From Methyloterricola oryzae (GTDB taxonomy: Bacteria > Pseudomonadota > Gammaproteobacteria > Methylococcales > Methylococcaceae), in assembly GCF_000934725.1 (NCBI RefSeq), contig NZ_JYNS01000005.1, forward strand, positions 186,001-250,000: a stretch of 64,000 nt of DNA, read 5' to 3'. Below, piece by piece: positions 13,918 through 50,876 of the stretch (its first letter is position 1; every line of letters begins with the position of its first letter). The translations under genes were made by a program, and so were the position numbers. Below the pieces are notes generated by a model that saw only the letters and a list, made by a program, of their open reading frames with translations, did not search any database and had not been told where the DNA came from.

Positions 13918-13943
13918 GCTGGGTTCCCTTCGCGGGGAAGGCG

Positions 13944-37833: not shown

Positions 37834-38186
37834 CGCCCACCGGCTTGCTGTGGAAACTGCGACGCGCCCGTCAGGTGTTGGATCAACTGGAAGCGGGTCT
37901 ACGTGGCCGGCCAGCCTCGGTAGAGGAGGGGACCGGGCGAGTCACTATCGCCTTCGCCGAAAAGCTGGGGCTGAAGCTGGTGTCCTCCCGCGAGGCAGCC
38001 GACTTGGGATATCGGCCCAAGACCCGAGTCTCGCCCATCCTTTACCAGGAGCGTAGCGTCCCGCACGGACGTATGCGCCGGGTCGCACTATTCGAGCTGC
38101 GCAGCCAATGTCGGCGGATCGCGGCAGGGGATGTGGGTATGCTATCGGCTGAAACCGATGCGGCTCTGAGTGATGAGGAAGAATGA
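37830..38186 (+). CDS. Hypothetical ICE protein
   Basis: A 118-residue cytoplasmic protein of unknown family, starting at an ATG that overlaps the stop of the HerA-like gene. It has a basic, helical N-terminus (LLWKLRRARQVLDQLEAGLRGR) and an acidic end. Coupled translation suggests it works with the ATPase (inference). Confidence 0.55.
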   Translation: MTPTGLLWKLRRARQVLDQLEAGLRGRPASVEEGTGRVTIAFAEKLGLKLVSSREAADLGYRPKTRVSPILYQERSVPHGRMRRVALFELRSQCRRIAAGDVGMLSAETDAALSDEEE

Positions 38187-38638: not shown

Positions 38639-39513
38639 GGCGCCGGACTCTGCCTTGGCTGCTGTTGTGGCTGACTGGCCTTGCGTTAGCCGCCGGCACG
38701 TATGGGGACTTTCTGGCAGCACTGGCGCTGCAAGAATCGTCCAGCAACGCGCAATCCCAGAATGCAAGCGGTTACTTGGGACTTTACCAGATGGGCGAAG
38801 CGGCCCTTATTGATGCCGGCTATTACCGGCCTGACGGCAGCGCGCTCAACGACTGGCAGGGAAACTGGACTGGCAAGGACGGCGTCAGCAGCCGGTCGGG
38901 TTTTCTCGCCAACCCGGACGCCCAGACCAATGCGGTTACCGCCTTTAACAGCGTGCAATGGCGCTACATTCAGGGATTGGGCCTGGACCGCTATGTAGGC
39001 CAGACAGTAGGCGGCCTGATGGTGACGGCCTCCGGCCTCCTAGCCGGAGCGCACTTGGTTGGCGTGGGGGGACTTCAGCGCTACCTGATTTCCGGCGGAC
39101 GTGTGCTGCCGCGCGACGGCAATGGCACGAGCATCGCTAGCTACTTGGCAACGTTTGGCGGCTACGACGTGTCTAGAGTCACGGGTTCCAACGTGTTGGG
39201 CGGAACCCGTGATTGGGTCGCAGGCGGCGCCGCTGCGGGTGATGGCCGCAGTGCGGTCGAGGGGGCCGTTGTGGGCCTTCCTGGCACTGATCCTCAAGCG
39301 GCGTTCGCCATGGGGGCGGGCGTGAGTCTGGTGGACTTTCGAACTGCCGCGCTGGGAATTTTATCCAACGCGCTGCTGCTTTGGACCGCCTGGGTGGCTG
39401 GCGCGCAATACCACGGTTGGCGTCAGGGGCGCCTGAGCCTATTGGATCTGCAAATGCGAGCATTGCGTGCCGCGGTGATAACTGCTGCCGTGCTGTTTAT
39501 AACCTTGAGCTGA
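38635..39513 (+). CDS. Muramidase-like/DUF3262 (PFL_4701) fusion protein
   Basis: A 292-residue protein starting at GTG 38635, overlapping the upstream stop. After a signal peptide the N-terminal part (about 25-200) resembles lysozyme-like wall hydrolases: ALQESS with a candidate catalytic Glu, NASGYLGLYQMGEAALIDAGYY, WTGKDGV. The C-terminal 70 residues (AAFAMGAGVSLVDFRTAALGILSNALLLWTAW ... YHGWRQG ... RALRAAVITAAVLF) match the two-helix DUF3262/TIGR03758 ICE membrane protein, normally a separate gene in the secretion cluster. The product may open peptidoglycan while anchored at the channel (inference). Confidence 0.65.
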   Translation: MRRRTLPWLLLWLTGLALAAGTYGDFLAALALQESSSNAQSQNASGYLGLYQMGEAALIDAGYYRPDGSALNDWQGNWTGKDGVSSRSGFLANPDAQTNAVTAFNSVQWRYIQGLGLDRYVGQTVGGLMVTASGLLAGAHLVGVGGLQRYLISGGRVLPRDGNGTSIASYLATFGGYDVSRVTGSNVLGGTRDWVAGGAAAGDGRSAVEGAVVGLPGTDPQAAFAMGAGVSLVDFRTAALGILSNALLLWTAWVAGAQYHGWRQGRLSLLDLQMRALRAAVITAAVLFITLS

Positions 39514-39524
39514 CGCAAATTTTC

Positions 39525-39643
39525 CGAGCGACACCCACGCTCGCCGAGGCGTCCCGTCTCGATAATCCGGGGAATCCCATAGCTGCCGCGAGCCTGCGTT
39601 TCCGGCGGGCGTCCAAGGCCAACAGGCCTCGGGCGCAGCAGGC
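39525..39643 (+). ncRNA. Structured leader element, copy A (before repA)
   Basis: First of six related elements. P1 is GAGCG/CGCTC (39526-39530 with 39538-39542). P2 is GAGGC/GTCTC (39546-39550 with 39556-39560), and its loop CCCG can pair with CGGG at 39568-39571. The branched stem is CCTGCG (39593-39598) with CGCAGCAGG (39634-39642), enclosing AGGCC/GGCCT. It lies between the muramidase-fusion stop and a leader peptide that precedes the RepA-like gene. Confidence 0.65.
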
Positions 39644-39759
39644 CTTCATTACACATTACCTCTGATGTTTCCCCTGGCAGTGGGTCCCGACTGAACTCGG
39701 CGCCCCGCTGCCGTTCATCCCTGAATGTCCCTAGCCGCGCCTGTGTGGAGGAGGTCGTT

Positions 39760-39813
39760 ATGTGTGCTCAGCGTATTGCCATGCTGGATCGAAAATTCAA
39801 TCAGCCTGACTAG
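39760..39813 (+). CDS. 17-codon leader peptide before repA
   Basis: A short frame MCAQRIAMLDRKFNQPD with a very strong Shine-Dalgarno (GGAGGAGG at 39747-39754, 5 bases before the ATG). Its stop is 43 bases before the RepA-like start, which itself has no good ribosome site. In IncFII and IncB plasmids, translation of a short leader peptide plus an RNA pseudoknot controls repA/repZ; the layout here is similar, but this is inference. Confidence 0.5.
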   Translation: MCAQRIAMLDRKFNQPD

Positions 39814-39856
39814 CTCAGGCGTTTAGCGATCGCTTGTATCAAGTTCGGCTTCCGTT

Positions 39857-40573
39857 ATGCATGACGGCAACCGTTGCGGCCATCGTCCGGAGCACCCGCG
39901 CTGGTTTGCTCCTCCGGCGCTACACGCCCGGCGGCCTGGCATTCTGGTTAAGCTTGGGGAAAAGCTCAAGGCCTATTATCCCCACCCTGATGTTCTGCCC
40001 AGCCTCAATGCCGCAAATGGTTCGTCCCGCCAGCAGCGCAGCGAGCGTCGCGAGGCTTGCGTGCAGCTATTGGGGGCGGTCGTGCATTATCTCGACCTGG
40101 TGACTTTGCGGGTTGGAATTCCCGGCGCTGACGGGCTTTTTCAGGGACTCACCCTGGATTTTCTCGCGTCTGTGTCAGGGCTTGGCCTGCGGAGAGCCGA
40201 ACGTGCGGCGTCCGACCTGGCCCGTGCGGGCATGCTCACGACCCATCCCATTGCGGAGCGCCACGAAGGCGGCTACCGAGGCTTTGCGGCTATCCGTACT
40301 CTCCATCCGCGACTGTTTACCGCCCTCGGCCTGGGAGCATGGCTCCGTCACGAGCGCGAAAAGGCCAGCACCCGCCTGCGGAAGAAGCTCCGCAAGCAAG
40401 CGGCCAAGGCTCAGGCAAATTTTGGGCTGATGTTCTGTGGGGCATCATGCAAGCCGAAGGCTTCTGAGCCCAAACAGCCTAACAAGACCCAGATGCTGCG
40501 CGACCTGATGCTGGCCAACCCTGGCCGCCCCATCGAGGAACTGTTCGAGCTCCTTCGCGGCCCACCGCCCTGA
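39857..40573 (+). CDS. RepA-like replication initiator (tentative)
   Basis: A 238-residue basic protein. The central region has the look of plasmid RepA proteins: CVQLLGAVVHYLDLVTLRVGI, LTLDFLASVSGLGLRRAERAASDLARAGMLTTHP (winged helix-turn-helix), and FAAIRTLHPRLFTALGLGAWL. A lysine/arginine-rich helix follows (LRKKLRKQAAKA). The assignment rests on remembered family resemblance and on the adjacent iteron-like repeats and DnaA-box-like site. The start codon lacks a good Shine-Dalgarno, and a leader peptide lies upstream. Alternative: a DNA-binding regulator. Confidence 0.55.
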   Translation: MHDGNRCGHRPEHPRWFAPPALHARRPGILVKLGEKLKAYYPHPDVLPSLNAANGSSRQQRSERREACVQLLGAVVHYLDLVTLRVGIPGADGLFQGLTLDFLASVSGLGLRRAERAASDLARAGMLTTHPIAERHEGGYRGFAAIRTLHPRLFTALGLGAWLRHEREKASTRLRKKLRKQAAKAQANFGLMFCGASCKPKASEPKQPNKTQMLRDLMLANPGRPIEELFELLRGPPP

Positions 40574-40746
40574 CTACCGCGTCTCGGTATTTCCCTATCC
40601 CTTGCATAGGCCAGTCGATACCGGCCATTGGCTGGTTTTGCCTTTACCCAGCCTAATCCCCGTCATGGTGCACGACGCCAACTAGAAACGACCCCAGGAG
40701 CGCTCGAATCGACATTCAATGACGCCATTCCTAAAGGTCGGCATCC

Positions 40747-40854
40747 GGATGTGGCGGGGTATCGGCGGTTAAGTGTCGGGGCCCGTTCGTCCGCTGTGGA
40801 CAACCCACGGAGCAGCGAAGCTTAAGTGCCGGCATTCTGGGCGATAAGTGGCGG
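40747..40854 (+). other. Candidate replication origin: iteron-like repeats and DnaA box
   Basis: Three close copies of an 11-mer, TTAAGTGTCGG (40769-40779), TTAAGTGCCGG (40822-40832) and ATAAGTGGCGG (40844-40854), plus a degenerate one, GGATGTGGCGG (40747-40757). The outer and inner members of each pair are exactly 22 bp apart, about two helical turns. A DnaA-box-like TGTGGACAA (40795-40803, one mismatch to TGTGGATAA) lies between the pairs. An A/T-richer stretch follows at about 40858-40905. Consistent with an iteron-type oriV served by the RepA-like protein. Confidence 0.5.
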
Positions 40855-40914
40855 CGCTTAATCAAATGCTCTTACAGTACATGCAAAAGCAAATAGGAAA
40901 CGTCCTGTTGGACT

Positions 40915-40934
40915 GTGCGGCATCCCTGCCGCAC
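40915..40934 (+). other. Perfect hairpin downstream of iteron-like repeats
   Basis: An 8-bp inverted repeat GTGCGGCA / TGCCGCAC with a TCCC loop. It may be part of the candidate origin or a terminator of leftward or rightward transcription; only GTTTGG follows on the plus strand. Confidence 0.45.
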
Positions 40935-40985
40935 GTTTGGCGCGCTCAAACGCCGCGTGCCTCAGAGGCGGTTTACCCGTAGGCG

Positions 40986-41014
40986 TTGACAGCGGCGCGG
41001 TGTGGTGGTAGGGT
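40986..41014 (+). promoter_or_regulatory. Sigma-70 promoter of the DUF3577 leader
   Basis: TTGACA (40986-40991), 17-base spacer, TAGGGT (41009-41014). The expected transcript starts near 41021, 10 bases before leader element copy B, giving a 5' untranslated region of about 220 bases. This supports the view that the repeated elements act as RNA. Confidence 0.6.
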
Positions 41015-41030
41015 CACCCCCGTTGTAACC

Positions 41031-41110
41031 GTGGCGACTGCGTATTCAGTCGCACCCGTTGCCGCCCGCGCCTGCGCATCGGCGGCCGTCCCTTCGGGGG
41101 CGCAGCAGGC
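41031..41110 (+). ncRNA. Structured leader element, copy B (before DUF3577 gene)
   Basis: P1 is GCGACTG/CAGTCGC (41034-41040 with 41047-41053). The branched stem is CCTGCG (41071-41076) with CGCAGCAGG (41101-41109), enclosing a GTCCC-TTC-GGGG type hairpin. The P2/pseudoknot part seen in the other copies is missing or very short. A terminator-like hairpin follows before the gene. Confidence 0.6.
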
Positions 41111-41172
41111 TCGTACCGGCCCCTGCCGGTTGCTTCACACCAAGCGCTACGCGCTTTGCTCTACTTACCCAT

Positions 41173-41224
41173 CGGGGACGTCTGTTCCTCATGGGGAGTA
41201 ACGTCGATTCTCCGTTGGTTTTTT
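41173..41224 (+). promoter_or_regulatory. Attenuator-like hairpin before DUF3577 gene
   Basis: CGGGGACGT (41173-41181) can pair with ACGTC...TCTCCG (41201-41214), followed by a six-T run at 41219-41224, 20 bases before the start codon. The same CGGGGA/TCTCCG core recurs before radC and the DUF932 gene. Transcription attenuation is the simplest reading. Confidence 0.5.
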
Positions 41225-41243
41225 CGTCTTCAGGAGAACGTCC

Positions 41244-41708
41244 ATGACCCACCTTTCCAAATACTTCGATTTGCACATCACCGGCATCGGCTATCTAAGT
41301 CGTATTCGCTCGGTGCCAGTACGTCGCGGCCAGCCATTTCTGGCGGTGGATATTTCGGCCCTGCACGGGGCAGCCGACCAAGTGGAATACACTCGATTCG
41401 ACTGCAAGGTAAGCGGCGAGGACGCCAAGGGCATCGTCGCTAGCCTAGAACAGGCGGTCAGGGAGAACAGCACGGTTCTGATCGGCTTCAAGCTCGGCGA
41501 TTTGTACGCAGAGACCTTCACCTACGACAAGGGCGAGAAGGCCGGTCAGACAGGTGTCAGTCTCAAGGCTCGTCTGTTGTACGTTGCCTGGGTCAAGATC
41601 GATGGCAAGGATTTCTACCGGGCGCCTCTGAAGCAGGAGGAAATTCCGGCTCAGGATTGCCAATCGAACCACGATGGAGGGTGGATTCCCACCAGCGAGG
41701 CGGCCTGA
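41244..41708 (+). CDS. STY4534-family ICE replication-associated protein (DUF3577)
   Basis: A 154-residue DUF3577 protein, annotated in PFGI-1/SPI-7-type elements as STY4534 family, thought to act in DNA replication of the element. The conserved start is KYFDLHITGIGYLSRIRSVPVRRGQPFLAVDISALHG, then VEYTRFDCKVSGEDA and LIGFKLGDLYAETFTYDKGEKAGQTGVSLKARLL. A Shine-Dalgarno AGGAGA precedes the ATG. It has its own promoter, structured leader and downstream terminator, so it is a single-gene unit. Confidence 0.85.
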   Translation: MTHLSKYFDLHITGIGYLSRIRSVPVRRGQPFLAVDISALHGAADQVEYTRFDCKVSGEDAKGIVASLEQAVRENSTVLIGFKLGDLYAETFTYDKGEKAGQTGVSLKARLLYVAWVKIDGKDFYRAPLKQEEIPAQDCQSNHDGGWIPTSEAA

Positions 41709-41727
41709 CCCGCTCACTTCCAACCCA

Positions 41728-41758
41728 GCTTGGGGCGACGTTTGTCGTCGCCCCAAGC
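41728..41758 (+). terminator. Intrinsic terminator after DUF3577 gene
   Basis: A perfect 13-bp stem GCTTGGGGCGACG / CGTCGCCCCAAGC with a 5-base loop, followed by a pyrimidine-rich CATTTCCTTTTC. Confidence 0.75.
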
Positions 41759-41893
41759 CATTTCCTTTTCGATCAATCAGTCACAATTTGCCAGGCTTAG
41801 ACTCAGGCTGCTGGCAATTTTACCCCTGCGGGGCAGCATGCCCCATCGTCTTGGGAACTGCTCCTGCTGCATTCACTTTTCAGGAGTAACCCC

Positions 41894-42472
41894 ATGATCA
41901 AACTCTCAGGCACGCTATTTATCCGTCAGGTCAATGGCCGCAACGGCGCGTTCTCCGTCGGTCGGCTAGTCACGCCAATTGGCGAGTTCGCCATCAAGGA
42001 CACGTTGTTGGATCAGTACGATGAGGGCCGCTATGAGGGTGAGTTCGGCATAAGCCGAATTTACCACGGCCACTACGTGGCTGGCGGACGTATGGTGATT
42101 GAGGTGCGCGCGACTCTGGAAACCTTGGCGCTGGCTGCCATTGGCGCGTTGCCGATAGCCCAAAGTGGGGACCTGCAGGAGCCTGATCCTTTGGATCAAG
42201 AATCATCCAGGCAGGCCGAGGTGTCAGCGTCAGTGGACAGCTGGATGCAGGTAGACCCGCTACCCGAATCCAGCGAGTCGGCTTCGGCCGTTGCTGCGGA
42301 CGGCGATTTTATCCAGGACGACGCCGATTTGTTCGGTGCTCTGTGGCCGCTGGAGGACACCGTGAAGCTCGATACCACCGTGGACCGTGTTTTGTTCCGA
42401 CGCCAGAAAGAACGGCTTAAGGTTTTGAACTACCGGTTTCAGCCGGTGGGCCAGACTTGGCAGCGTGACTGA
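41894..42472 (+). CDS. DUF3275-family ICE protein
   Basis: A 192-residue DUF3275 protein, a conserved accessory protein of conjugative elements with unknown function. The family part is the N-terminal 90 residues (IKLSGTLFIRQVNGRNGAFSVGRLVTPIGEF, ILDQYDEG-like LLDQYDEGRYEGEF, HYVAGGRMVIEVRA). An acidic, serine-rich linker follows, then a basic C-terminus (RRQKERLKVLNYRFQPV). A Shine-Dalgarno AGGAG precedes the ATG. No structured leader of the repeated type lies directly upstream. Confidence 0.82.
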   Translation: MIKLSGTLFIRQVNGRNGAFSVGRLVTPIGEFAIKDTLLDQYDEGRYEGEFGISRIYHGHYVAGGRMVIEVRATLETLALAAIGALPIAQSGDLQEPDPLDQESSRQAEVSASVDSWMQVDPLPESSESASAVAADGDFIQDDADLFGALWPLEDTVKLDTTVDRVLFRRQKERLKVLNYRFQPVGQTWQRD

Positions 42473-42529
42473 CGACGCCGCAGCAGGGTTAACCGCGGAG
42501 GCATTTCTCATCCGCACCGGCACGCGATT

Positions 42530-42563
42530 CCCGCGATCCCTTGCGATCGCGAGGGATCACGGG
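42530..42563 (+). terminator. Stable hairpin after DUF3275 gene
   Basis: CCCG-C-GATCCCT pairs with AGGGATC-A-CGGG (11 pairs, one mismatch). No T-run follows, so it is a possible factor-dependent terminator or mRNA stabiliser. The surrounding 42473-42834 shows no gene. Confidence 0.4.
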
Positions 42564-42834
42564 AAGGTTGTGCAGCAACCCTCTGTGACCTCACCGGCCG
42601 TTCGTCGCCGGGAAATGACGAAGCCTTTTGTGCGGAAGCGACCGCGCGCGTTGATGGCAAGACCTCATGCTTCAGTTCAGGTCTCGTGGGGGGAATGATC
42701 CTGACGTTCGTACGATGGGAGCGTCGGCATTACCGCGCGATGAAGCGCGTTTATACGAGCCGTTGCACCGCGACACGTTCCGCGGGAGCGGGCGCATGAA
42801 GACCCAGGTCCGTGAGACTCGTCTTCCACTTTCA

Positions 42835-42887
42835 GGTGCCGTTTCGCGGCACCTTTCCCAAGCCATAGTGGCAGGTTTGGGAAAGGT
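42835..42887 (+). promoter_or_regulatory. Mutually exclusive hairpin pair before leader copy C
   Basis: Hairpin 1 is GGTGCCG/CGGCACC (42835-42841 with 42847-42853) followed by TTT. Hairpin 2 is ACCTTTCCCAA/TTGGGAAAGGT (42851-42861 with 42877-42887). They share ACC at 42851-42853 and cannot form together. In the equivalent place before copies D, E and F, a terminator T-tract can pair with a downstream A-tract, so the arrangement is conserved. Confidence 0.5.
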
Positions 42888-42902
42888 TCCGAGTTCGACC
42901 GT

Positions 42903-43010
42903 CGCGACTGCGGATTAGTCGCCGAGGTCTTCACCTCGCCAAATTGAAGCCCCTCTGCCGGCGCGCGCCTGCGCTTCCGTCGGCCGGTCCTTCGTGACCG
43001 CGGCAGGCAC
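42903..43010 (+). ncRNA. Structured leader element, copy C (before DUF6876 gene)
   Basis: P1 GCGACT/AGTCGC (42904-42909 with 42917-42922). P2 GAGGT/ACCTC (42924-42928 with 42933-42937). Loop CTTCA (42929-42933) pairs with TGAAG (42945-42949). Branched stem CCTGC (42968-42972) with GCAGG (43003-43007), enclosing CGGTC/GACCG. Together with copies D-F it shows base changes that keep pairing. Confidence 0.7.
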
Positions 43011-43138
43011 GATTCCTGACAATGGCTCCAACCGCTTGCCTAGAGCCGGCAGCATCGGCCATGGCAATTGTTGTTAACCCTGACGGGGTAGGTCCCCTGG
43101 CATGGGTGACTGCGCCGTCGTAATTTCGGAGAGCACTC

Positions 43139-44188
43139 ATGACGTTTCATGCAAGCAACTTATTCGAAGTCGACGACATGCAAGGTGTTTACGCGGATGG
43201 TTTTGTTACCGACGAAGCGGCGCACCTGCTGTTCGGTTCGTTCTGGGGACGCGATACCGCCATCCAAGGCCTGTTGGCGCGTCTCTCTCTGCCCACGAGC
43301 GAAGGCGGCCTCTATCGCCTGAAGTTGGTGGACTGTGACAGCCAGTCGAGCCGTGTACTGGTCATCGGTGATGCCGAGCGGCTGGCCAAGCTCACCGGGC
43401 GCATGCCCAAGGCGAACCTGTTTGGCGATGTGGTGCAGCTGTGGTTATACGACAACCAGGTATTGTCGCCGGATCTCGGAGCTCGCCGCGCACTGAGGCT
43501 GCTGCCTGCGGAGGTAGATGATTTCAATGCCGCACTGGATGGCACCTTGGCAGGCGTCTCGGTCTGGGACTTGGTCAAGGCAGTTTGTCATTTGCCGCTG
43601 CTGGACGCCTGGCGCCAGGATATGTTGGACCTGGCTCAGGCCCAGGGCTGGCTCAAGTTCTACACTGGGGTTGGTGTCAACGCTCTGGCGGTTGACCTGG
43701 ACAGCGATCAACTGGAAGCACAGATCGAGGAGCGGTTGCTCAGTGGCCGGTTGCCCTTACCCCAGGAACTCGTGGCTGGAGTCCCAAGTGCCGCGCCAGT
43801 GCTAATGGAAGCCCAAGGTGGACGACTCTCGTCTGGCCAATTGGAACAGGCGCTGCGCGGTTTCACCGGCACCGAGCATTGGTTCCGCCATGCCTTTGTG
43901 AGAGCCATGACCTACACCGACGGAGTCCAGTTTTTCGCCGAGCAGGGCGGGGCGCAGGGAGCCTATTGGTTTCTCGATATCGTCGCGACGGAATACTTCC
44001 CCCATCTGCAACGTCATCCGTTTCAGGTTGTCGAGGTGGAGGTTAATGACTCCCGCGCAGCCATTCGGGTCGAAGACGGCAATGGGCAGGCTCTGTTTTC
44101 AAGGGACATCGAGTTCACGGACCTGCAAACGGGAAGGTGGAGGTTTTACCTGACCGACAACGTTCTACTGCTGCCGAGCGAGTATTGA
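43139..44188 (+). CDS. DUF6876-containing ICE protein with novel N-terminal region
   Basis: A 349-residue cytoplasmic protein. The last 125 residues match the DUF6876 pattern: LEQALRGFTGTEHWFRHAFVRAMTYTDGVQFFAEQGGAQGAYWFLDIVAT ... RWRFYLTDNVLLLPSEY. The first 220 residues are not recognised (VTDEAAHLLFGSFWGRDTAIQGLLARL) and look like a separate globular domain. DUF6876 proteins are common in mobile elements, function unknown. Preceded by a 660-base gene-free region carrying leader copy C. Confidence 0.65.
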   Translation: MTFHASNLFEVDDMQGVYADGFVTDEAAHLLFGSFWGRDTAIQGLLARLSLPTSEGGLYRLKLVDCDSQSSRVLVIGDAERLAKLTGRMPKANLFGDVVQLWLYDNQVLSPDLGARRALRLLPAEVDDFNAALDGTLAGVSVWDLVKAVCHLPLLDAWRQDMLDLAQAQGWLKFYTGVGVNALAVDLDSDQLEAQIEERLLSGRLPLPQELVAGVPSAAPVLMEAQGGRLSSGQLEQALRGFTGTEHWFRHAFVRAMTYTDGVQFFAEQGGAQGAYWFLDIVATEYFPHLQRHPFQVVEVEVNDSRAAIRVEDGNGQALFSRDIEFTDLQTGRWRFYLTDNVLLLPSEY

Positions 44189-44282
44189 TCCATCACGAAG
44201 TCGGCGGCCGGTGCAATTGTCGAGTCGGACTCTGGGCTGGCCCGATGGCTGTTCGGGGTCGCCGAGCTGAGCTCGGATCTTT

Positions 44283-44331
44283 CCCCCGCTACGGGGGCTT
44301 TTTCGAGCCGTTTACGGACGGCTGGAAAAAG
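44283..44331 (+). terminator. Terminator plus tract-pairing hairpin (before copy D)
   Basis: CCCCCG/CGGGGG (44283-44288 with 44292-44297) followed by five T. The tract CTTTTTC (44298-44304) can itself pair with GAAAAAG (44325-44331), extended by AGCCG/CGGCT inside. The same layout recurs at 45098 and 47882. It terminates the DUF6876 gene and may allow conditional read-through into the radC leader. Confidence 0.7.
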
Positions 44332-44357
44332 TCTCTAAGGTTCAGTTTCAAACCGTT

Positions 44358-44476
44358 GCGGCGTGCGGCTCACGTCGCCGAGGCCTCCCGCCTCGACAAT
44401 TCGGGAGTGACCCTTTGCCAGTGCGTGCCTGCTTCGCCGCTGGAAGCGCTTTCATTTCGGAGGCGCTGTGCAGGCT
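44358..44476 (+). ncRNA. Structured leader element, copy D (before radC)
   Basis: P1 is CGTG/CACG (44362-44365 with 44371-44374), extended by GGCG-type pairing. P2 GAGGC/GCCTC (44380-44384 with 44390-44394). Loop CTCCCG (44385-44390) pairs with CGGGAG (44402-44407). Branched stem GCCTGC (44427-44432) with GCAGGC (44470-44475), enclosing AGCGC/GCGCT (44445-44449 with 44463-44467). Confidence 0.7.
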
Positions 44477-44515
44477 TTTTCTACTGCGAGCTCTCGGGCT
44501 CTTTTCAACTCACCC

Positions 44516-44557
44516 ACCGGGGAAGTCATTCCCCGTGCTGGGGGGGATTTCTCCGGT
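44516..44557 (+). promoter_or_regulatory. Hairpin before radC start
   Basis: ACCGGGGAAGTC (44516-44527) pairs with GATTTCTCCGGT (44546-44557) with two G-U pairs, enclosing CCCC/GGGG. Only ATTCGTTC follows, so it is less terminator-like than its relatives before the DUF3577 and DUF932 genes. It may act on translation of radC 33 bases downstream. Confidence 0.5.
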
Positions 44558-44589
44558 ATTCGTTCATAGCTTGGATGCGGAGATTGACT

Positions 44590-45072
44590 ATGACTGATTT
44601 ATACGTCCATGATTTGTTAGGCGATTACGTGCCGGCACACGGCGAGCTGATTCTCGCCGAAGCCAGGCGCCGGTTGGCCGCGAAGTACCGCCGGGGCGCC
44701 GCGCTCACTGAGCCCGATGCCGTGCGCGAGGCGCTCCAATGGCGCCTGGCGGAGCGGCCTTACGAAGTGTTTGGCTGCCTCTGGTTGGACAATCGACATC
44801 GTGTGATCGAATTCGCCGAATTATTCAAAGGCACCATCGATGCGGCAGCAGTCTACCCGCGGGAGGTGGTTAAGGCGGCCTTGGCGCACAACAGCGCAGC
44901 TGTCGTGTTCGTTCACAATCATCCTTCAGGCGTCGCCGAGCCCAGCGATGCCGACCGGCTCCTGACAGTCAAGCTCAAGGCCGCTTTGGCCCTCGTGGAC
45001 GTCAAGACGCTGGACCATTTCGTGGTGGCTGCCGAAGGTAGCTACTCGTTCGCAGAACATGGGCTGTTGTGA
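44590..45072 (+). CDS. radC: RadC-like JAB-domain protein
   Basis: A 160-residue RadC/JAB-domain (MPN+) protein. It keeps the metalloprotease-like JAMM pattern: FGCLWLDNRHRVIEFAELFKGT with a catalytic-type Glu, and VFVHNHPSGVAEPSDAD with His-x-His and Asp (about 108-120). Length equals the mobile-element form lacking the N-terminal helix-hairpin-helix part of chromosomal RadC. The role is not established; element RadC proteins are suspected anti-restriction or DNA-repair factors. The ATG at 44590 follows GGAGATTG; the much longer upstream frame covers the structured leader and is not used. Confidence 0.85.
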   Translation: MTDLYVHDLLGDYVPAHGELILAEARRRLAAKYRRGAALTEPDAVREALQWRLAERPYEVFGCLWLDNRHRVIEFAELFKGTIDAAAVYPREVVKAALAHNSAAVVFVHNHPSGVAEPSDADRLLTVKLKAALALVDVKTLDHFVVAAEGSYSFAEHGLL

Positions 45073-45097
45073 ATTGAGCCTTGACCTTGGAGATTCT

Positions 45098-45147
45098 CCC
45101 CCGACTCCGGGGGCTTTTTCGAGTACCGCGTGGGGTGCTGGAGAAAG
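45098..45147 (+). terminator. Terminator plus tract-pairing hairpin (before copy E)
   Basis: CCCCCG/CGGGGG (45098-45103 with 45108-45113) and a T-run end the radC transcript. CTTTTTC (45114-45120) can pair with GAGAAAG (45141-45147), with AG/CT and ACC/GGT pairs inside. Same layout as before copies D and F but with different inner sequence. Confidence 0.7.
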
Positions 45148-45165
45148 CATCCGGTGTTTTACCGT

Positions 45166-45276
45166 GGCACTGTGCGGCTCACAGTGCCGAGGCTTCCCGC
45201 CTCGCTAATCCAGGGAGACCTTTAGCCGCCGCGCGCTTGCGTTTCCGACGGCCATGCCTTCGGGCATGTTGCAGGC
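45166..45276 (+). ncRNA. Structured leader element, copy E (before DUF932 gene)
   Basis: P1 GGCACTGT/ACAGTGCC (45166-45173 with 45181-45188). P2 GAGGC/GCCTC (45189-45193 with 45199-45203). Loop TTCCC (45194-45198) pairs with GGGAG (45213-45217, one U-G). Branched stem CTTGC (45236-45240) with GCAGG (45271-45275, one U-G), enclosing CATGCC/GGCATG (45253-45258 with 45263-45268). Confidence 0.72.
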
Positions 45277-45294
45277 ATGATCGACGCAGCCCTT

Positions 45295-45342
45295 GCCGGG
45301 GAGATTCCTCCCCCGAAGGGGCGGAATGTCTCCGGCTTTTTT
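45295..45342 (+). promoter_or_regulatory. Terminator-like attenuator before DUF932 gene
   Basis: GCCGGGGAGATTCC (45295-45308) pairs with GGAATGTCTCCGGC (45323-45336), enclosing CCCC/GGGG, and is followed by six T (45337-45342). The ribosome site GGAG starts 9 bases later and the gene 20 bases later. An intrinsic terminator placed between leader and gene is the hallmark of transcription attenuation. Confidence 0.65.
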
Positions 45343-45361
45343 ACTTTGCAGGAGACCTACC

Positions 45362-46189
45362 ATGAATCAATTGGCCACCCGGTTCCGGAGTGACGCGCGC
45401 GTCACACGTTCCCATCAATCTTTGACCGACGACGAGATACGGCGCGTAGCGCCATCCATTTACGCCGATACACCCCATTACTCGCGCTCCGCGCGATATG
45501 GGTACATTCCCACCAGCCAGGTTCTCCAGGGCCTGCGCCAGGAGGGCTTCCAGCCCTTCATGGCTTGCCAGGCCAGGGCGCGGGGCGATCGTGGGGACTT
45601 TACCAAACACATGCTCAGGCTACGCCATGTCTCGCAGATCGATGGCGAGCAAGCCAACGAGATTGTGTTGATCAATAGTCACGATGGCTCCAGTGCCTAC
45701 CAGATGCTGGCCGGCGTGTTTCGATTCGTTTGCGAGAACGGCATGGTTTGTGGAGAGACCGTGGAAGACCTGCGTATCCCACATCGTGGCGATGTCGCGG
45801 GGCGAGTCATCGAGGGTGCCTATCGGATTCTGGATGATTTCGAGAACATCGACCGTTGCCGCGAAGGTATGCAAGGCGTTCAGTTGTCCGATGCCGAAGC
45901 CCACTTGCTGGCCCGCTCCGCGTTGACCTTGCGCTTCGAGGACGAATTCCGGGCGCCGGTGGTGCCTGAGCAGGTACTGCAGCCCAAGCGCTTCGCCGAT
46001 ACAGGTCAGGACCTCTGGAGCCGGTTCAACGTGGTTCAGGAGAACCTGGTCCGCGGCGGGTTGCTGGGACGCAACGCCAGTGGACGGATCACCACCACTC
46101 GGGCGGTCAACGGCATAGACGGCAACGTCAAGCTCAACCGCGCCTTGTGGATGCTCGCCGATGGTATGCGCAAGCTAAAGGGGGGATGA
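45362..46189 (+). CDS. DUF932-family ICE protein
   Basis: A 275-residue DUF932 protein, frequent in plasmids and conjugative elements near replication and methylase genes; function unknown. Family features: VAPSIYADTPHYSRSARYGYIPTSQVL, FTKHMLRLRH, NEIVLINSHDGSSAYQMLAGVFRFVCENGMVCG. The ATG at 45362 has GGAG 8 bases upstream. An upstream in-frame ATG at 45293 lies in the attenuator hairpin and is rejected. Confidence 0.85.
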   Translation: MNQLATRFRSDARVTRSHQSLTDDEIRRVAPSIYADTPHYSRSARYGYIPTSQVLQGLRQEGFQPFMACQARARGDRGDFTKHMLRLRHVSQIDGEQANEIVLINSHDGSSAYQMLAGVFRFVCENGMVCGETVEDLRIPHRGDVAGRVIEGAYRILDDFENIDRCREGMQGVQLSDAEAHLLARSALTLRFEDEFRAPVVPEQVLQPKRFADTGQDLWSRFNVVQENLVRGGLLGRNASGRITTTRAVNGIDGNVKLNRALWMLADGMRKLKGG

Positions 46190-46374
46190 GCCATGGCTTT
46201 GTGTCCCCGTCTGTCAGAGCGAATCGGTCTCGACACGGAGCCGTGACTGGAGTTGAAGTCGCAGCGTCGTCGAGGCCGTGCGCTGGCGGCCGCTGGGTAA
46301 CACCGTCGGGTTCCACCAATCAGGCTGCAATCAGCAGTGCTGTTCCTATTGCGTCTGCTCTTGATTGCATCAAT

Positions 46375-46404
46375 GCGTTCCGGCCTTTGGGCCGGAACGC
46401 TTTT
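46375..46404 (+). terminator. Intrinsic terminator after DUF932 gene
   Basis: A perfect 11-bp stem GCGTTCCGGCC / GGCCGGAACGC (46375-46385 with 46390-46400), TTTG loop, then TTTTC. The rest of 46190-46470 shows no gene and no copy of the six-member leader element. Confidence 0.8.
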
Positions 46405-46416
46405 CACCACCCAGGA

Positions 46417-46459
46417 GGGCCGATTGCCCCGCAGGGGTGTCGTGCCGCCCCACTTTTTT
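46417..46459 (+). promoter_or_regulatory. Terminator-like hairpin before methylase start
   Basis: GGGC...GCCC (46417-46420 with 46447-46450) encloses CCCC/GGGG (46427-46430 with 46434-46437). It is followed by six T (46454-46459) and immediately by the ribosome site GGAG. It resembles the attenuator before the DUF932 gene in position but pairs less well. Confidence 0.4.
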
Positions 46460-46470
46460 GGAGATTCACC

Positions 46471-47595
46471 ATGGCTTTGATGTTTCAACGTTTGGCGCGC
46501 AATTTCGTCAAGGAGGGTTACTTTCCAGCCGACGCTGACACCACCGCACGGATTCTGTCCATGCTGGAGCCGGTGCCGAATGGGACCCTCAGGATCATCG
46601 ACCCCTGTGCCGGCGAAGGTGTGGCTTTGGCCGAGTGCAAACAGTACCTGGGCCAGGAACGTACTAAGGCTTACGGCGTGGAGTTCGACGAGGAACGCGC
46701 TTGGCATGCCAAGGGGCTGCTCGACTGCGTGATCCACGGCGACTTTCAGGACACGATAATCTCCTAGCGCAGCTTTGGCTTGCTCTTCCTCAACCCGCCC
46801 TATGGTGACCTGGTGACGGATAAGGCCGTTACAGGCGATGCAGGGAAGGGGCGCCAGAAGCTGGAAAAGCTGTTTTACCAGCGGGGCATCCGCTTGTTGC
46901 AGCCTGGGGGTATTCTCGTCCTGATCGTACCCTACACCAGCCTGGACAAGGAGTTCTGCGCTTGGATCGCTAGCCATTGCGAAGCGGTGGTGGTGTATCG
47001 GGCGCCCGTGGATACCTACCGCCAGGCGGTGGTGGTCGGCCGACGCAGGGCAGGTATCGCCAATGGCGAGGACACGCGGGATGTCCGGGAGCGGCTGCTG
47101 GCGGTCGGCTCTTGCGGGTGCACGGACGTATTGCCGGCGGTCTGGCAAGGTGAGCCGTACGCCGTGCCGGCACTGACAGTGAACGCGCCGGCGCTGCGTT
47201 TCAACCTGGTGCGCATGGACGCCGCGCAATTGCGGGAGGAGATTCGCCGTTACCCTTGCCTGTGGCCGCAATTCGAGTTGCATTTCGGGCAGAAGGCAGG
47301 TCGTGCGCGGCTACCGCTGAGGGCCTTGTCACGCTGGCATCTGGCGCTGTCGCTGGCGGCAGGGCAGGTGTGTGGCGTGGTGCGTTCCAACGACGGTACT
47401 CGGGCCTATCTAATCAAAGGCGACACCTTCAAGCAAAAAAAGGTGGATGTGACCGTGGAACACGCTGAGACCCCGGCGGGACAACGGCGTAGCACCGAGA
47501 CGCGGGTTGCCACCGACGTCTTCGTGCCCGTGATCCGGGCACTGGACTTGACCCAGGGTAGCCCGAGCTTTGGTAAAGCGCTGGTCATTCAGTAA
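46471..47595 (+). pseudogene. DUF6094 N6-adenine methyltransferase with internal amber stop
   Basis: One frame encodes a DUF6094-type adenine methyltransferase of about 374 residues, interrupted by TAG at 46765-46767. The part before holds the SAM-binding motif IIDPCAGEGVAL (about 47-58). The part after begins RSFGLLFLNPPYGDL, the catalytic NPPY motif. Relatives have glutamine at the stop position, so a single CAG-to-TAG change explains it. Unless suppressed, both products would be inactive. Start MALMFQRLARNF with GGAG upstream. Element methylases commonly protect incoming DNA from host restriction. Confidence 0.8.
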
Positions 47596-47609
47596 GTAGG
47601 AGGCTCCAG

Positions 47610-47861
47610 TTGACAGGATTGATTTGCGACCCCATCCGTTCAGGCACAGTGACTCCGGTATGTCGTCGATGCGGCGTCCGGCTGAGCCAGAGCCTCAGCG
47701 TCGAGGCCTACAGGGCCGACCGACTGTTTTGGGATGACTGGATCTGCGATGTCTGCAACGGCGGCCGGGCACTGTCGATGTCGCAATGGCGACAGCAACG
47801 TGCTGGTGGGCTCGACCGGCCGGGATGGAACCGGATATCCGAACTGGGACGTCTGCTCTAA
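47610..47861 (+). CDS. Small putative zinc-ribbon protein
   Basis: An 83-residue protein starting at TTG 47610, with AGGAGG seven bases upstream and 14 bases after the methylase stop. Two Cys pairs, CRRCG (about 18-22) and CDVC (about 46-49), suggest a zinc ribbon. No family recognised. Probably cotranscribed with the methylase. Confidence 0.55.
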   Translation: MTGLICDPIRSGTVTPVCRRCGVRLSQSLSVEAYRADRLFWDDWICDVCNGGRALSMSQWRQQRAGGLDRPGWNRISELGRLL

Positions 47862-47881
47862 CAACCAAGTTACATTCACGT

Positions 47882-47937
47882 CCCCCTGCGCACCAGGGGG
47901 CTTTTTCGAGGGCCGGCGCGGCGGGCTCTGGAAAAAG
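47882..47937 (+). terminator. Terminator plus tract-pairing hairpin (before copy F)
   Basis: CCCCCT/AGGGGG (47882-47887 with 47895-47900) and CTTTTT end the methylase operon. CTTTTTC (47901-47907) can pair with GAAAAAG (47931-47937), with AG-G-GCC against GGGC-T-CT inside. Third instance of this layout. Confidence 0.72.
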
Positions 47938-47959
47938 CTCATTGCATCCGATGTTGTAC

Positions 47960-48070
47960 GTGGCGACTGCGTTCAGTCGCCGAGGTCTCCGACCTCGCTA
48001 AAAAGCGGAGACCCTAAGCCGCCGCGCGCCTGCACCTCCGCCGGCCGGTCCTTCGTGACTGCTGCAGGCA
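47960..48070 (+). ncRNA. Structured leader element, copy F (before helicase)
   Basis: P1 GGCGACTG/CAGTCGCC (47962-47969 with 47974-47981). P2 GAGGTC/GACCTC (47982-47987 with 47991-47996). GGTCTCCG (47984-47991) can pair with CGGAGACC (48006-48013), partly as loop pseudoknot and partly as an alternative to P2. Branched stem CCTGCA (48029-48034) with TGCAGG (48063-48068), enclosing CGGTC/GACTG. Confidence 0.72.
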
Positions 48071-48217
48071 CTTTTACTTTACCTGGCGCGAGCGCGTGGT
48101 CCCTCCGCGGCATTTCTCTGACGTGAAGGCGGGATCACTGTGTTTTGCTGGGGGCGTTGCGGCGCTTGGGTGGCCTTGCAAGAGGCGACGCGGCAATCTC
48201 GTCATTTTCAACCCATA

Positions 48218-48256
48218 AGGGGCATTTCGGCCCCTCGGGAACGGTGTGCCCTTTTT
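48218..48256 (+). promoter_or_regulatory. Alternative hairpins before helicase start
   Basis: AGGGGC/GCCCCT (48218-48223 with 48230-48235) competes with GGGCA/TGCCC (48220-48224 with 48247-48251), the latter followed by five T (48252-48256). This is the layout of an antiterminator and terminator, 17 bases before the helicase ATG. Confidence 0.5.
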
Positions 48257-48272
48257 CTTGAAGGAGTACACC

Positions 48273-50876
48273 ATGAACGAAACTCTAACGGTTGCGCAGG
48301 ACGTCATCGACGTGCTGCGCTCGGCCACCATTGAAGGACAGCAGTTGATTCTGTCGGGTCAATTGGAACGCGATCTCTACGAGCGAACCGACCGCGTTCT
48401 GGAACACATCGGCGGGGCATGGGTGCGTCGGGACCAGGCGCACTGTTTCCCGCATGACGTGGATTTGCCTGAGACAATCGGGCGTATTCTCGAGTCAGCG
48501 GAAGCGGAAGCGGAAGCGGAAGCGGAGGCGTATGCGGGCATGAACCAGCCTCGTTGGAGGCCGCAAGACGTCGCAGCCAACGAGGAGACGGAGGCTGCAC
48601 CAGCACACGTCATTCCACTGGTGCAGTTCGTCGAAGACTTCGGCGACGGGCTGATGCAAGCGGTCTCGCAACAGAACCCGCCGGTGTACGACGGGCGACC
48701 GGATCCGGCCCGTGATGCGGTCATGGATGGCCTCAAACGTCAGCCTTTTCCTGCTCAGAGGGAAGTGGTGCAGGCAGTGACCCGGTTGCTGGTGGAGGCC
48801 GACGAACAGGCCGCTATCGTGAATGCGGAAATGGGAACCGGGAAGACCATCATGGCGATCGCGGCTGCCGCGGTGTTACATAGGGAAGGCTATCGACGGA
48901 CGCTGATCATCAGCCCGCCACATCTTGTGTACAAATGGCGCCGAGAGATCCTTGAAACGGTCAGTGATGCAAACGTGTGGGTGCTGAACGGGCCGGATAC
49001 CTTGCGTCAGTTGCTGAAAATCCGCCGCCTTGGCGCTGAGCCGACTGCCGGCAAAGTACAGGAGTTCTACGTCATCGGCCGGGTGCGCATGCGCATGGGC
49101 TTCGATTGGATGCCGGTGGCGCTGAAGCGGAAGCTACATGTTCGGGTTTTCACCGAGGCCAACAACTCCCGCTCGGCGTCGTACTTGCGGACCGACAGCG
49201 TGGCTGCATGCCCGCGCTGTGGCACGCCGCTCAAGGACGAGGACGGGGCGTTGCTGAACTGGTCGGCATTCATGGCCACAGCTGGGGACCGGCGCCGGGC
49301 GTGTACCGCCGAGTTTGGCAGGCGGTCTTGTGGGGAACGCTTGTGGACGCTCAAGCGTTCGAGCGCAAGTACAAGCCGAGCGGACATCGTCAAGGGCGCA
49401 CTGTGCCAGCTGCCCACCATCGGTCCCAAGACCGCTGACAAGCTCTTGCGGGCATTTGGCCCTGAGACCCTGGCTGCGATGCTGTCTGACAACCCGTTCG
49501 ATTTTATCAACCTGATGGATGAGGACGGCGAGTTGGTATTTGAGGACCGCCAGGCTATGCGCATGGAAAAGCGCATGGCGACGCAGGAGTTCGCGTTTGG
49601 GCAAGGTGGATATCAACCCACCGAGTACATCAAGCGCTATCTTCCGCAGGGCTTCTTCGACCTGCTGATCGTCGACGAAGGGCATGAGTTCAAGAACGAG
49701 GGATCGGCGCAAGGCCAGGCCATGGGGGTCCTGGCGGCCAAGTGCCGCAAGACGATTCTGATGACCGGGACCTTGATGGGAGGCTATGCCGATGATCTGT
49801 TCGTCTTGCTTTGGAGGATACTGACACGCCGCCTGCTGGAGGACGGCTACCGGGTCAACGCCCGCGGCAGCCTGGCGCCGGCGGCCATGGCTTTCATGCG
49901 CGAGCACGGCGTGCTCAAGGACGTGTTCAAAGAAACCGACGAAGGCAGCCACCGCACCGCGCGTGGCAAAAGACTGACGGTGCATACCAAGAAGGCCCCG
50001 GGATTCGGTCCGAAGGGAATCGCTCGCTACGTTCTGCCGTACACCGTGTTCCTTAAGCTCAAGGACATCGGCGGCAATGTGCTGCCATCCTTCGACGAGC
50101 GTCTCATTGAAGTCGCTATGAGTGAGGAGCAGGCAGAGTACTACGGCACACTGCGCCGGAATCTGGTGGATGCCTTGAAAGATGCGCTGCGCAAGGGGGA
50201 CAAGACCTTGTTGGGCGTGGTGCTCAACGCATTGCTGGCATGGCCGGAGTGTTGCTTTCGGATGGAAGCGATCAAGCACCCGCGGACGGGGGCCTTGCTT
50301 GCCTCCGCACCGCCGTTGTTTGAGGCGGAGCCGACCCCTAAGGAGCGGGAGTTGATTAAGCTGTGCCGGGAGCAGAAGGCGCGTGGCAGGCGCGTGCTGG
50401 CGTACACCATTTACACCGGGACGCGCGATACCACTCTGCGTTTGAGGCTGTTGCTGCAGAAGGAAGGCTTTGCTGTGTCGGTGCTGCGCTCCAGCGTGCC
50501 CACAGAGAAGCGCGAGGACTGGATTCTTGATCAGGTGGATCGGGGTGTGGACGTGCTGATCTGCAACCCGGAGCTGGTCAAGACCGGGCTCGACTTGCTG
50601 GATTTTCCAGCGATCGTGTTCCTGCAGTCCGGCTTCAACGTCTACACCGTCCAGCAGGCCTCGCGCCGGTCTTGGCGCATTGGGCAGAAGCAGCCGGTTG
50701 AGGTGTTCTATCTGGGCTACGCGGAAACGGCACAATCCGATTGTCTGCGGCTGATGGCGAAGAAAATCGCCGTTAGCCAGTCGACCTCCGGAGACACGCC
50801 GGAAACCGGCCTGGATGCGCTGAACCAGGAGGAGGACAGCCTCGAGGTGGCCTTGGCCAAGCGGCTAATCCAGTGA
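48273..50876 (+). CDS. SNF2-type DEAD/H helicase of the element
   Basis: An 867-residue superfamily 2 helicase. Motif I is NAEMGTGKTIMAIA (about 186-199), motif II VDEGHEFKNEG (about 466), motif III TGTLMGGYADDLF. The C-terminal helicase domain has VLICNPELVKTGLDLLDFPAIVFLQSGFNVYTVQQASRRSWRIGQ with the SNF2-type motif VI. A four-cysteine element (CPRCG, later CGERLW) and a helix-hairpin-helix-like LPTIGPKTADKLLRAFG are inserted between motifs I and II. It probably remodels or unwinds DNA during transfer or defence evasion. ATG 48273 follows AAGGAG. Confidence 0.85.
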   Translation: MNETLTVAQDVIDVLRSATIEGQQLILSGQLERDLYERTDRVLEHIGGAWVRRDQAHCFPHDVDLPETIGRILESAEAEAEAEAEAYAGMNQPRWRPQDVAANEETEAAPAHVIPLVQFVEDFGDGLMQAVSQQNPPVYDGRPDPARDAVMDGLKRQPFPAQREVVQAVTRLLVEADEQAAIVNAEMGTGKTIMAIAAAAVLHREGYRRTLIISPPHLVYKWRREILETVSDANVWVLNGPDTLRQLLKIRRLGAEPTAGKVQEFYVIGRVRMRMGFDWMPVALKRKLHVRVFTEANNSRSASYLRTDSVAACPRCGTPLKDEDGALLNWSAFMATAGDRRRACTAEFGRRSCGERLWTLKRSSASTSRADIVKGALCQLPTIGPKTADKLLRAFGPETLAAMLSDNPFDFINLMDEDGELVFEDRQAMRMEKRMATQEFAFGQGGYQPTEYIKRYLPQGFFDLLIVDEGHEFKNEGSAQGQAMGVLAAKCRKTILMTGTLMGGYADDLFVLLWRILTRRLLEDGYRVNARGSLAPAAMAFMREHGVLKDVFKETDEGSHRTARGKRLTVHTKKAPGFGPKGIARYVLPYTVFLKLKDIGGNVLPSFDERLIEVAMSEEQAEYYGTLRRNLVDALKDALRKGDKTLLGVVLNALLAWPECCFRMEAIKHPRTGALLASAPPLFEAEPTPKERELIKLCREQKARGRRVLAYTIYTGTRDTTLRLRLLLQKEGFAVSVLRSSVPTEKREDWILDQVDRGVDVLICNPELVKTGLDLLDFPAIVFLQSGFNVYTVQQASRRSWRIGQKQPVEVFYLGYAETAQSDCLRLMAKKIAVSQSTSGDTPETGLDALNQEEDSLEVALAKRLIQ
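48498..48528 (+). repeat. Hexanucleotide tandem repeat in helicase gene
   Basis: About five copies of a GCGGAA unit encode an alternating Ala-Glu run near residue 80. Copy-number changes would keep the frame and only alter linker length. Confidence 0.8.

Follow-up and report, generated by a model that had tools for sequence, protein, structure and literature searches.

Pseudoknotted 5' leaders resembling radC RNA precede DNA-handling genes of an integrated conjugative element in Methyloterricola oryzae

A 64,000-nucleotide (nt) stretch of the Methyloterricola oryzae genome (the window, to which all coordinates without a locus name refer) contains an integrated conjugative element, in which six structured leaders, A to F, stand before dispersed DNA-handling genes. 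Comparison with relatives indicates that the RNA fold is real and under selection, and its 3' domain forms an H-type pseudoknot that differs from the structure first proposed for it. The best explanation as a whole, which we consider about evenly balanced between right and wrong, is that the six elements are sense-strand 5' leader RNAs whose pseudoknots would be read by a shared factor that sets a switch at the start codon. The class is new to Rfam, as the RNA family library does not recognise it.

Anatomy of the leaders and evidence for the fold

All six copies reported in the initial annotation are present in the sequence and in the alignments, each on the + strand:

39525..39645, +, leader A: P1 of 5 base pairs (bp), P2, pseudoknot PK1, and the S1/S2 pseudoknot with a long P4
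41029..41112, +, leader B, short form: P1, then the S1/S2 pseudoknot with a C(UUCG)G P4, without P2 and PK1; before DUF3577
42902..43010, +, leader C, full form; before DUF6876
44356..44477, +, leader D, full form; before radC
45165..45280, +, leader E, full form, with one S1 mismatch; before DUF932
47961..48072, +, leader F, full form, with one S1 mismatch; before the SNF2-type helicase gene

In the full form (A and C to F), P1 is followed by P2, a stem of the CGAGGC/GCCTCG type whose loop pairs with a downstream strand to form PK1, and then by the 3' domain. The partner strand of PK1 begins about 6-9 nt past P2. The 3' domain runs in the order S1 (about 7 bases, e.g. GCCATCG), a short linker, the 5' strand of S2 (GCCTGC), the 3' strand of S1 (CGATGGC), P4 and the 3' strand of S2 (GCAGGC), with mostly 4-10 nt between the S2 5' and S1 3' strands. 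S1 (e.g. GCCATCG/CGATGGC) crosses S2 (CCTGC/GCAGG) with the hairpin P4 inside, which makes a second, H-type pseudoknot, and the CCTGC/GCAGG "branched stem" of the initial annotation is one arm of it. The S1 strands are GCCGCC/GGCGGC in B, GCCGGCG/CGTCGGC in C and CCAGTG/CGCTGG in D, while copy A has an S1 of 6 bp and a longer P4. In copy B, P1 leads directly to the 3' domain; the short form is frequent among relatives, too. The P2-loop pseudoknot, first claimed for all six copies, is found in A and C to F, with the quoted strand pairs in C to F, and is missing from B. The strands of P1 and P2 are legible in the same five copies, P1 is legible in B as well, and the pairs quoted for P3 and P4 exist in the sequence. 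We aligned 36 distinct short-form copies and examined 21 full-form candidates. In locus L099 (about 10306-10430, - strand), P1 seems to be replaced by a second P2/PK1 unit, so that two loop pseudoknots apparently stand in tandem; our script parsed one of them.

Minimum-energy folds of the single sequences contain P1 together with P2 in A, C, E and F and P2 without P1 in D, and for B P1 appears in the centroid fold only. The folding energies of single copies are only weakly unusual (z from +0.17 to -2.26), and the case for the fold rests on covariation among relatives and not on stability. We aligned 18 short-form copies (window copy B and 17 others) with MAFFT from sequence alone. Over 27 pairs and 481 cells, 96.3% of the cells are paired, against 32.7-46.0% in controls with slid partners. 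Both sides have changed in 21 of the 27 pairs, a result matched in 0 of 500 shuffles (which ignore relatedness), and the number of further pair types is as high in 5 of 500 shuffles. S1 is 98.4% paired, with both-sided change in five of its seven pairs, and S2 is 100% paired. P1 and the linkers are in part conserved in sequence, and the sequences of S1, S2 and P4 vary freely between elements. The compensatory change supports the earlier argument for a functional RNA.

PK1 was tested copy by copy, with shuffles that keep composition only. Its pairs are TCCCG/CGGGG in A (p 0.07), CTTCA/TGAAG in C (p 0.014), CTCCCG/CGGGAG in D (p 0.006), TTCCC/GGGAG in E (p 0.122) and TCTCCG/CGGAGA in F (p 0.022). 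All 18 copies whose P2 was parsed have a PK1 duplex of at least 4 pairs, in several compensating versions, and it reaches p<0.05 in 9 of them; 3 further copies were not parsed. A sequence-blind descriptor finds the crossing S1/S2 stems with P4 in 33 of 42 stretches that we chose; 29 of the 33 lie above all 60 shuffles, three are matched by 1 of 60 and one by 4 of 60. In its strict form it finds B, C and D alone among the window copies, missing A for its longer P4 and E and F for their one S1 mismatch; it also misses three divergent copies, two radC RNA copies and a Shewanella stretch described below. A typed DNA pattern for P3/P4 gave no matches.

Where the sense strand has a G.U pair, the opposite strand has an A.C mismatch, and the ratio of the two tells which strand folds. 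P1, S1 and S2 of 36 copies lean towards the sense strand (16 G.U, 7 A.C, p 0.09). The 30 distinct P4 hairpins hold 24 G.U pairs and 1 A.C mismatch, and their loops include C(UUCG)G and C(UGCG)G, closed by C-G. The wobble polarity and the UUCG/UGCG loops favour a sense-strand RNA over single-stranded DNA (ssDNA), and the wobbles speak against a hairpin in template-strand ssDNA. We also considered an HDV-like (hepatitis delta virus-like) ribozyme for the crossing stems. Such ribozymes have P3 between the 5' strand of P2 and the 3' strand of P1 and an active-site C in J4/2; the roughly 4-10 nt between the S2 5' and S1 3' strands in the 36 copies mostly leave no room for P3, and this candidate was rejected.

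Pairing potential beside the start codon and signals upstream

Between the leader and the ATG lie a GGG-rich hairpin and a strand complementary to the Shine-Dalgarno sequence (anti-SD), which can pair either with the Shine-Dalgarno (SD) arm or with an upstream mimic of it, a three-strand arrangement. Mimic, anti-SD and SD strands change together between elements, as in L055 (CCGGGGACACACCTC / GAGGGGTGTCTCCGG / GGAGACACGCC). We tested segments after dropping duplicates and those longer than 260 nt, leaving out L170, L171 and L103_15396, and resetting the start codon in eight of them (five window genes, L159_8540, L164_11094 and L013_7523). The anti-SD:SD hairpin reaches p<0.05 in 29 of 58 segments with dinucleotide-keeping shuffles, and the mimic:anti-SD helix does so in 39 of 56, with p<0.01 in 23, with composition-keeping shuffles. 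Mutually exclusive helices for a translational SD switch are thus predicted to exist as pairing potential. A run of at least 4 T within 7 nt of the mimic:anti-SD helix is found in 19 of 56 copies, compared with 5.3% of 7-nt windows in the same segments, so that one third of the switches could also terminate transcription. The switches predicted in the window are:

44516..44583, +, switch of radC: mimic 44516-44525, anti-SD 44548-44557, SD arm 44578-44583 (mimic p 0.000, SD hairpin p 0.31)
45295..45356, +, switch of DUF932: mimic 45295-45305, anti-SD 45328-45336 followed by TTTTTT, SD arm 45348-45356
48217..48272, +, switch of the helicase gene: mimic 48217-48229, anti-SD 48243-48255, SD arm 48260-48272

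By these tests E and F have both pairings, D has the mimic pairing only, and B and C have neither. The anti-SD:SD hairpin of F is clear, with p 0.010 for dinucleotide and 0.003 for composition shuffles. Apart from the DUF3275 gene discussed below, the leaderless element genes and the chromosomal genes with an SD core show no hairpin at p<0.05; this control is small, an SD core being present at 13 of the 22 starts from the element and at 4 of the 14 from the chromosome.

Upstream of three leaders are intrinsic-terminator-like hairpins with T-runs:

44283..44297, +, 5' of copy D; a downstream GGAAAAAG can pair with its T-run
45098..45113, +, 5' of copy E
47882..47900, +, 5' of copy F

In 37 of 77 upstream regions, a rule-based search finds an inverted repeat made of the terminator's T-run and a GGAAAAAG downstream of it; the rule missed visible cases (e.g. 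L100 and window copy E), and some of its 37 matches look spurious by eye. Such T-run/A-run repeats lie directly 5' of the leader at 44283-44340, 45098-45150 and 47882-47930 and in many relatives. Their wobbles are 133 G.U to 29 A.C, with 79 further mismatches outside the ratio; the arms were not aligned as homologues, and composition may bias the count. This polarity suggests that a read-through RNA exists. Sigma-70-like promoters number 1 against 2.4 expected, a count no higher than chance, and we therefore propose no promoter.

Recurrence, host element and relation to radC RNA

We searched relatives with two models, R1 (five window copies and one from genome G021) and R2 (the short form). 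At E<=1, R1 has matches in 21 of 101 relatives, several of them weak. At E<=0.1, R2 has matches in 24 of 201 genomes from the order, for example seven in G426, seven in G471 and nine in G529; a search of 67 loci with R2 gave 82 matches at this threshold, and since many of the loci had been chosen for matching, the number is not a frequency. Of 369 genomes of the class, 6 contain the exact P1 pattern and none the reversed one; all six belong to the 20 of the 369 that have DUF3577. A class-wide R1 search found the own genome and three weak matches among the 369 genomes, a weak negative, since scoring was limited to 11 candidates per genome and some genomes found by the pattern search were missed. 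The genome G052 has DUF3577 without a leader. The P1 pattern gave four stretches in viral contigs, one of which (L143) resembles P1 by eye, and blastn of two leaders against plasmids gave no match. Divergent copies (L053, L055, L056, L057, L061 and L169) have a 3' domain of other sequence, e.g. GCGCCTC/GAGGCGC crossing GGATCG/CGATCC, and the crossing topology is found in 8 of 11 tested. Members of the class with 48-58% GC retain the fold.

The genes behind the leaders form a recurring DNA-handling set, as first proposed: relatives carry several copies per genome before DUF3577, RadC, DUF932, DUF6876, SSB and helicase genes. We examined the region downstream of 81 of the 82 matches (L143 was left out), with gene families defined as blastp clusters and Pfam run on their representatives. 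A same-strand open reading frame lies within about 520 nt in 72 of 81 places, and in 48 of these 72 its start is 69-136 nt from the end of the match. The families are DUF3577/DUF3275 (14), DUF6876 (8), RadC (7), DUF932 (7) and an unnamed family of 150 amino acids (aa) (4), and more rarely helicase (3), SSB (2 places, one gene), DUF6094, DUF6573, HATPase and singletons.

We compared the 3' domains of 57 distinct copies from 15 genomes, dropping identical sequences, leaving out the divergent classes and treating each genome as one element. Copies before different known genes of one genome are 80% identical (32 pairs), while copies before the same gene in different genomes are 69% identical (91 pairs), a contrast as extreme in 0 of 2000 label permutations, which ignore base composition and relatedness.

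The initial annotation suggested that the leaders may belong to the radC motif. In the window, Rfam at gathering scores found no match to radC RNA (RF01754, 40 bits), and none was found to E 10 in 38000-50000; the whole-window search at gathering scores and the search of 38000-50000 at E<=10 gave a tRNA and chance matches only. Copy F alone scores 9.3 bits against the cut-off of 40, and a direct search of the own genome with RF01754 gave three weak matches, all outside the window and the best of 16.2 bits. The two classes do not occur together in the loci tested: radC RNA matches number 0 of 6 and 0 of 8 in loci of the window class; R2 finds no radC RNA place in four radC loci (one chance match elsewhere, 7.5 bits) and has no match at E<=0.1 in five named plasmids. 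These plasmids, pKLC102, pY89 and those of Stutzerimonas zhaodongensis, Pseudomonas veronii and Enterobacter ludwigii, hold 16 RF01754 matches in the region around DUF3577, two to four per plasmid. In four of the plasmids a radC RNA stands directly 5' of DUF3577, and in that of P. veronii it stands one gene further upstream. Matches to radC RNA occur in 66 of 119 genomes of one genus and in 2 of 200 of a phylum sample.

The architecture, in contrast, is shared. Like five of the six window copies, radC RNA has a P1 hairpin and then a P2 whose loop pairs downstream (by eye GATC/GATC, GGTC/GACC and GAACC/GGTTC). Its S1 also crosses its S2 with P4 inside, e.g. GTTCGC/GCGAAC with GCATCC/GGATGC and variants, a crossing that we read from the radC sequences here; the descriptor fits 11 of 13 stretches, all 11 above 60 shuffles. 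By eye, some radC leaders also end in this kind of hairpin, placed before the SD, and share the GTGTTTCTCCG anti-SD strand. The genes are also alike: radC RNA lies 5' of radC, integrase, methyltransferase or antirestriction-type genes, and the window class fits this location with its places before radC, a DUF6094 methyltransferase gene, DUF932, SSB and others. However, the P1 and P2 sequences differ, radC RNA alone places a further hairpin between P2 and the strand that completes PK1, where the window class has a short linker, and the short form without P2 and PK1 is unlike radC RNA. With shared architecture, neighbourhood and genes, other sequence and one hairpin fewer, the window leaders look like a sister class of radC RNA and not a member of it, so that the first suggestion stands for the two-pseudoknot architecture and the neighbourhood and fails on the cut-off. 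Listed since 2010 (Weinberg et al. 2010), radC RNA has no function reported in the literature we covered, with most subscription journals outside that coverage.

According to PMC2864571, STAXI RNA (RF01728) is a pseudoknot RNA with UUCG loops and tandem repeats near ssb, topoisomerase, antirestriction and integrase genes. By this description it resembles the window class in pseudoknots, UUCG loops and DNA-handling neighbours, and it has no match in the window at its cut-off or at E<=10 in 38000-50000. In locus L101 (2647-3462, - strand), three leader matches, two of which are weak (E 0.001-0.002), are located no more than about 0.8 kilobases 5' of an SSB gene, an arrangement reminiscent of STAXI with its tandem pseudoknots. 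In the Shewanella plasmid pSBAL11703 (L177, about 13842-13931, + strand), a structured-looking stretch 5' of DUF3577 does not fit the descriptor and possibly represents a further class.

The host element has a tyrosine integrase (27515-28627) adjoining a tRNA gene at 27415. The integrase, an S24-type repressor, ParA, a PFL_4669/AcaB-type protein and SSB lie 5' of the leader region, and transfer genes (DUF2859, a TraD-type coupling protein and DUF4400) lie downstream of it. The genes of the leader region are:

39857..40573, +, gene behind copy A, without a Pfam match; matches a PHROG of unknown function
41244..41708, +, DUF3577 / STY4534-family gene for a replication protein of integrative and conjugative elements, behind copy B (Pfam)
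41894..42472, +, DUF3275 gene without a leader of its own (Pfam), with an anti-SD:SD hairpin (p 0.023, pairing test)
43139..44188, +, DUF6876 gene, behind copy C (Pfam)
44590..45072, +, RadC JAB-domain gene, behind copy D (Pfam)
45362..46189, +, DUF932 gene, behind copy E (Pfam)
48273..50876, +, SNF2-type helicase gene, behind copy F (Pfam)

Pfam bears out five of the gene names first given, DUF3577, DUF6876, RadC, DUF932 and the helicase, and the sixth, "repA", is the gene without a Pfam match. The DUF6094 methyltransferase gene of the element (46471-47595, + strand) is broken by an in-frame TAG into 46471-46767 and 46780-47595; its relative in L013 (4284-5393) reads through without a stop. 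A 428-aa RCC1-repeat protein is encoded between the helicase and transfer genes (50979-52265, - strand). DUF3577 relatives were found at two loci only in the search of genome contigs and at none in viral contigs.

Possible modes of action

The leaders are probably a shared cis-regulatory signal that switches the establishment genes on together. The marked set would be what an incoming element needs at once: ssDNA-binding and replication proteins, RadC, DUF932, a methyltransferase and a helicase. We infer the factor, the direction of its action, the coupling of leader to switch, and the timing. A shared trans-acting factor, probably encoded by the element, would read the pseudoknot domain, and this reading would set the three-strand switch beside the start codon. 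With the anti-SD paired to the SD, translation would be off; with the anti-SD paired to the upstream mimic, the SD would be free, or a terminator would form where a U-run follows. A candidate circuit resembles that of T4 gp32: an ssDNA-binding protein could be titrated by incoming ssDNA, so that the genes are expressed; when the DNA has become duplex, the protein would be free again and could bind the leaders, shutting the genes off. The likeness of copies within a genome is as a genome- or element-specific reader would produce.

Several results weigh against this explanation. Gene conversion, recent duplication or base composition could also give the within-genome likeness, and the nearest neighbours of the 33 copies with a known gene are in the same genome for 15, before the same gene elsewhere for 11 and before another gene elsewhere for 7. 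In P1, S1 and S2 of the 36 copies, 16 G.U pairs against 7 A.C mismatches (p 0.09) are not significant alone. Leader and DUF3577 do not always go together: 14 of the 20 DUF3577 genomes of the class are without the exact P1 pattern, and in G029, G046 and G057 leaders occur although DUF3577 has no match there. The anti-SD:SD hairpin is not at p<0.05 in window B, C and D and is borderline in E (p 0.035 with dinucleotide and 0.070 with composition shuffles). The leaderless DUF3275 gene carries this hairpin (its p 0.023 being from composition shuffles), and in pKLC102 (L174) several genes that lack a pseudoknot leader seem by eye to have a hairpin with anti-SD and SD before their start codons (before 14862 and 15164, among others); leader and switch can thus be separate. 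Copy A starts 11 nt past the stop of the preceding gene and about 211 nt 5' of its own gene, so that a promoter of its own would fall inside the upstream gene. Finally, DUF3577 has no solved relative by sequence, and its structure model (the window protein and two relatives) is poor, with a predicted local distance difference test score (pLDDT) of 49; on this basis no nucleic-acid-binding fold is shown for it.

The main rival is RNA-borne transcription antitermination, in which the leader would load on RNA polymerase and carry it past terminators before the genes and between cassettes. We regard it as improbable, though well ahead of the other alternatives. EAR of Bacillus (EAR/epsC) has a pseudoknotted structure. 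By description, EAR and put of phage HK022 are structured leader RNAs like the window class and may share its mode of action, and PMC2864571 presents EAR as a precedent for a leader RNA with antitermination activity; EAR itself has no Rfam match in the window. Antitermination accounts better for the terminators, since leaders D, E and F stand after terminator-like hairpins and a T-run follows the mimic:anti-SD helix in 19 of 56 copies, and for the read-through polarity of the upstream repeats (37 of 77; 133 against 29). It would also fit copy A, which has no intergenic room for a promoter. However, 37 of the 56 copies are without a T-run, and these are better accounted for by the translational reading; one site per operon would also be enough, yet most cassettes carry one.

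Considerably less probable is that the leaders serve only mRNA stabilisation or processing, with a 5' pseudoknot protecting from decay. Structured 5' ends slow decay and the leaders do stand at cassette starts, but such a role leaves the pairing potential of the switch and the within-genome likeness unexplained. A metabolite-binding riboswitch is a slightly poorer candidate still. A compact H-type pseudoknot with a downstream SD switch is the layout of several riboswitches, and P1 and the linkers are conserved in part. Against this, the leaders precede DNA-handling genes of a mobile element and not a metabolic pathway, S1, S2 and P4 vary freely between elements, and the average likeness of copies is higher inside one genome than between hosts.

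It is very unlikely that the elements act as structures of the transferred single DNA strand, a promoter or initiation site of the Frpo or ssi kind driving early expression in the recipient. F-plasmid Frpo and ColIb-P9 ssi also lie before establishment genes, and both the kind of gene and the multi-copy layout are those of plasmid leading-region promoters. In Frpo the transferred strand is the template, i.e. the strand complementary to the mRNA. Frpo and ssi are ssDNA promoters, while the wobbles here indicate a sense RNA: G.U exceeds A.C on the sense strand, which speaks against a hairpin on the complementary strand. On this polarity and on the RNA-stabilising UUCG/UGCG loops of P4 we reject an Frpo-like ssDNA promoter; sense-strand ssDNA remains compatible with the wobbles, and neither oriT nor relaxase was identified in this analysis. 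For STAXI, Weinberg et al. raised ssDNA (PMC2864571).

Chance structure in GC-rich DNA fits single-sequence energies near those of shuffles (z -2.26 to +0.17) and is next to impossible given both-sided change in 21 of 27 pairs (0 of 500 shuffles) and members at 48-58% GC that keep the fold.

Of the original interpretation, a functional RNA before DNA-handling genes is retained, while membership of the radC class, the branched stem and a P2 pseudoknot in all six copies are not. More speculatively, and with the balance against it, at least three sequence classes (the window class, the GGATCG/CGATCC class of L055, L061 and L169, and radC RNA) may form one RNA superfamily that is a shared on/off signal of an establishment regulon. 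Its sequence would turn over from element to element while topology and SD-mimic switch stay fixed because each element has its own RNA-reading factor, possibly sensing ssDNA as T4 gp32 does. A sister class with independent sequence, common architecture, a predicted switch and within-genome likeness points to the mutants to make and to a partner to seek, and the leaders could explain how the dispersed DNA-handling genes of integrative and conjugative elements are jointly expressed after transfer.

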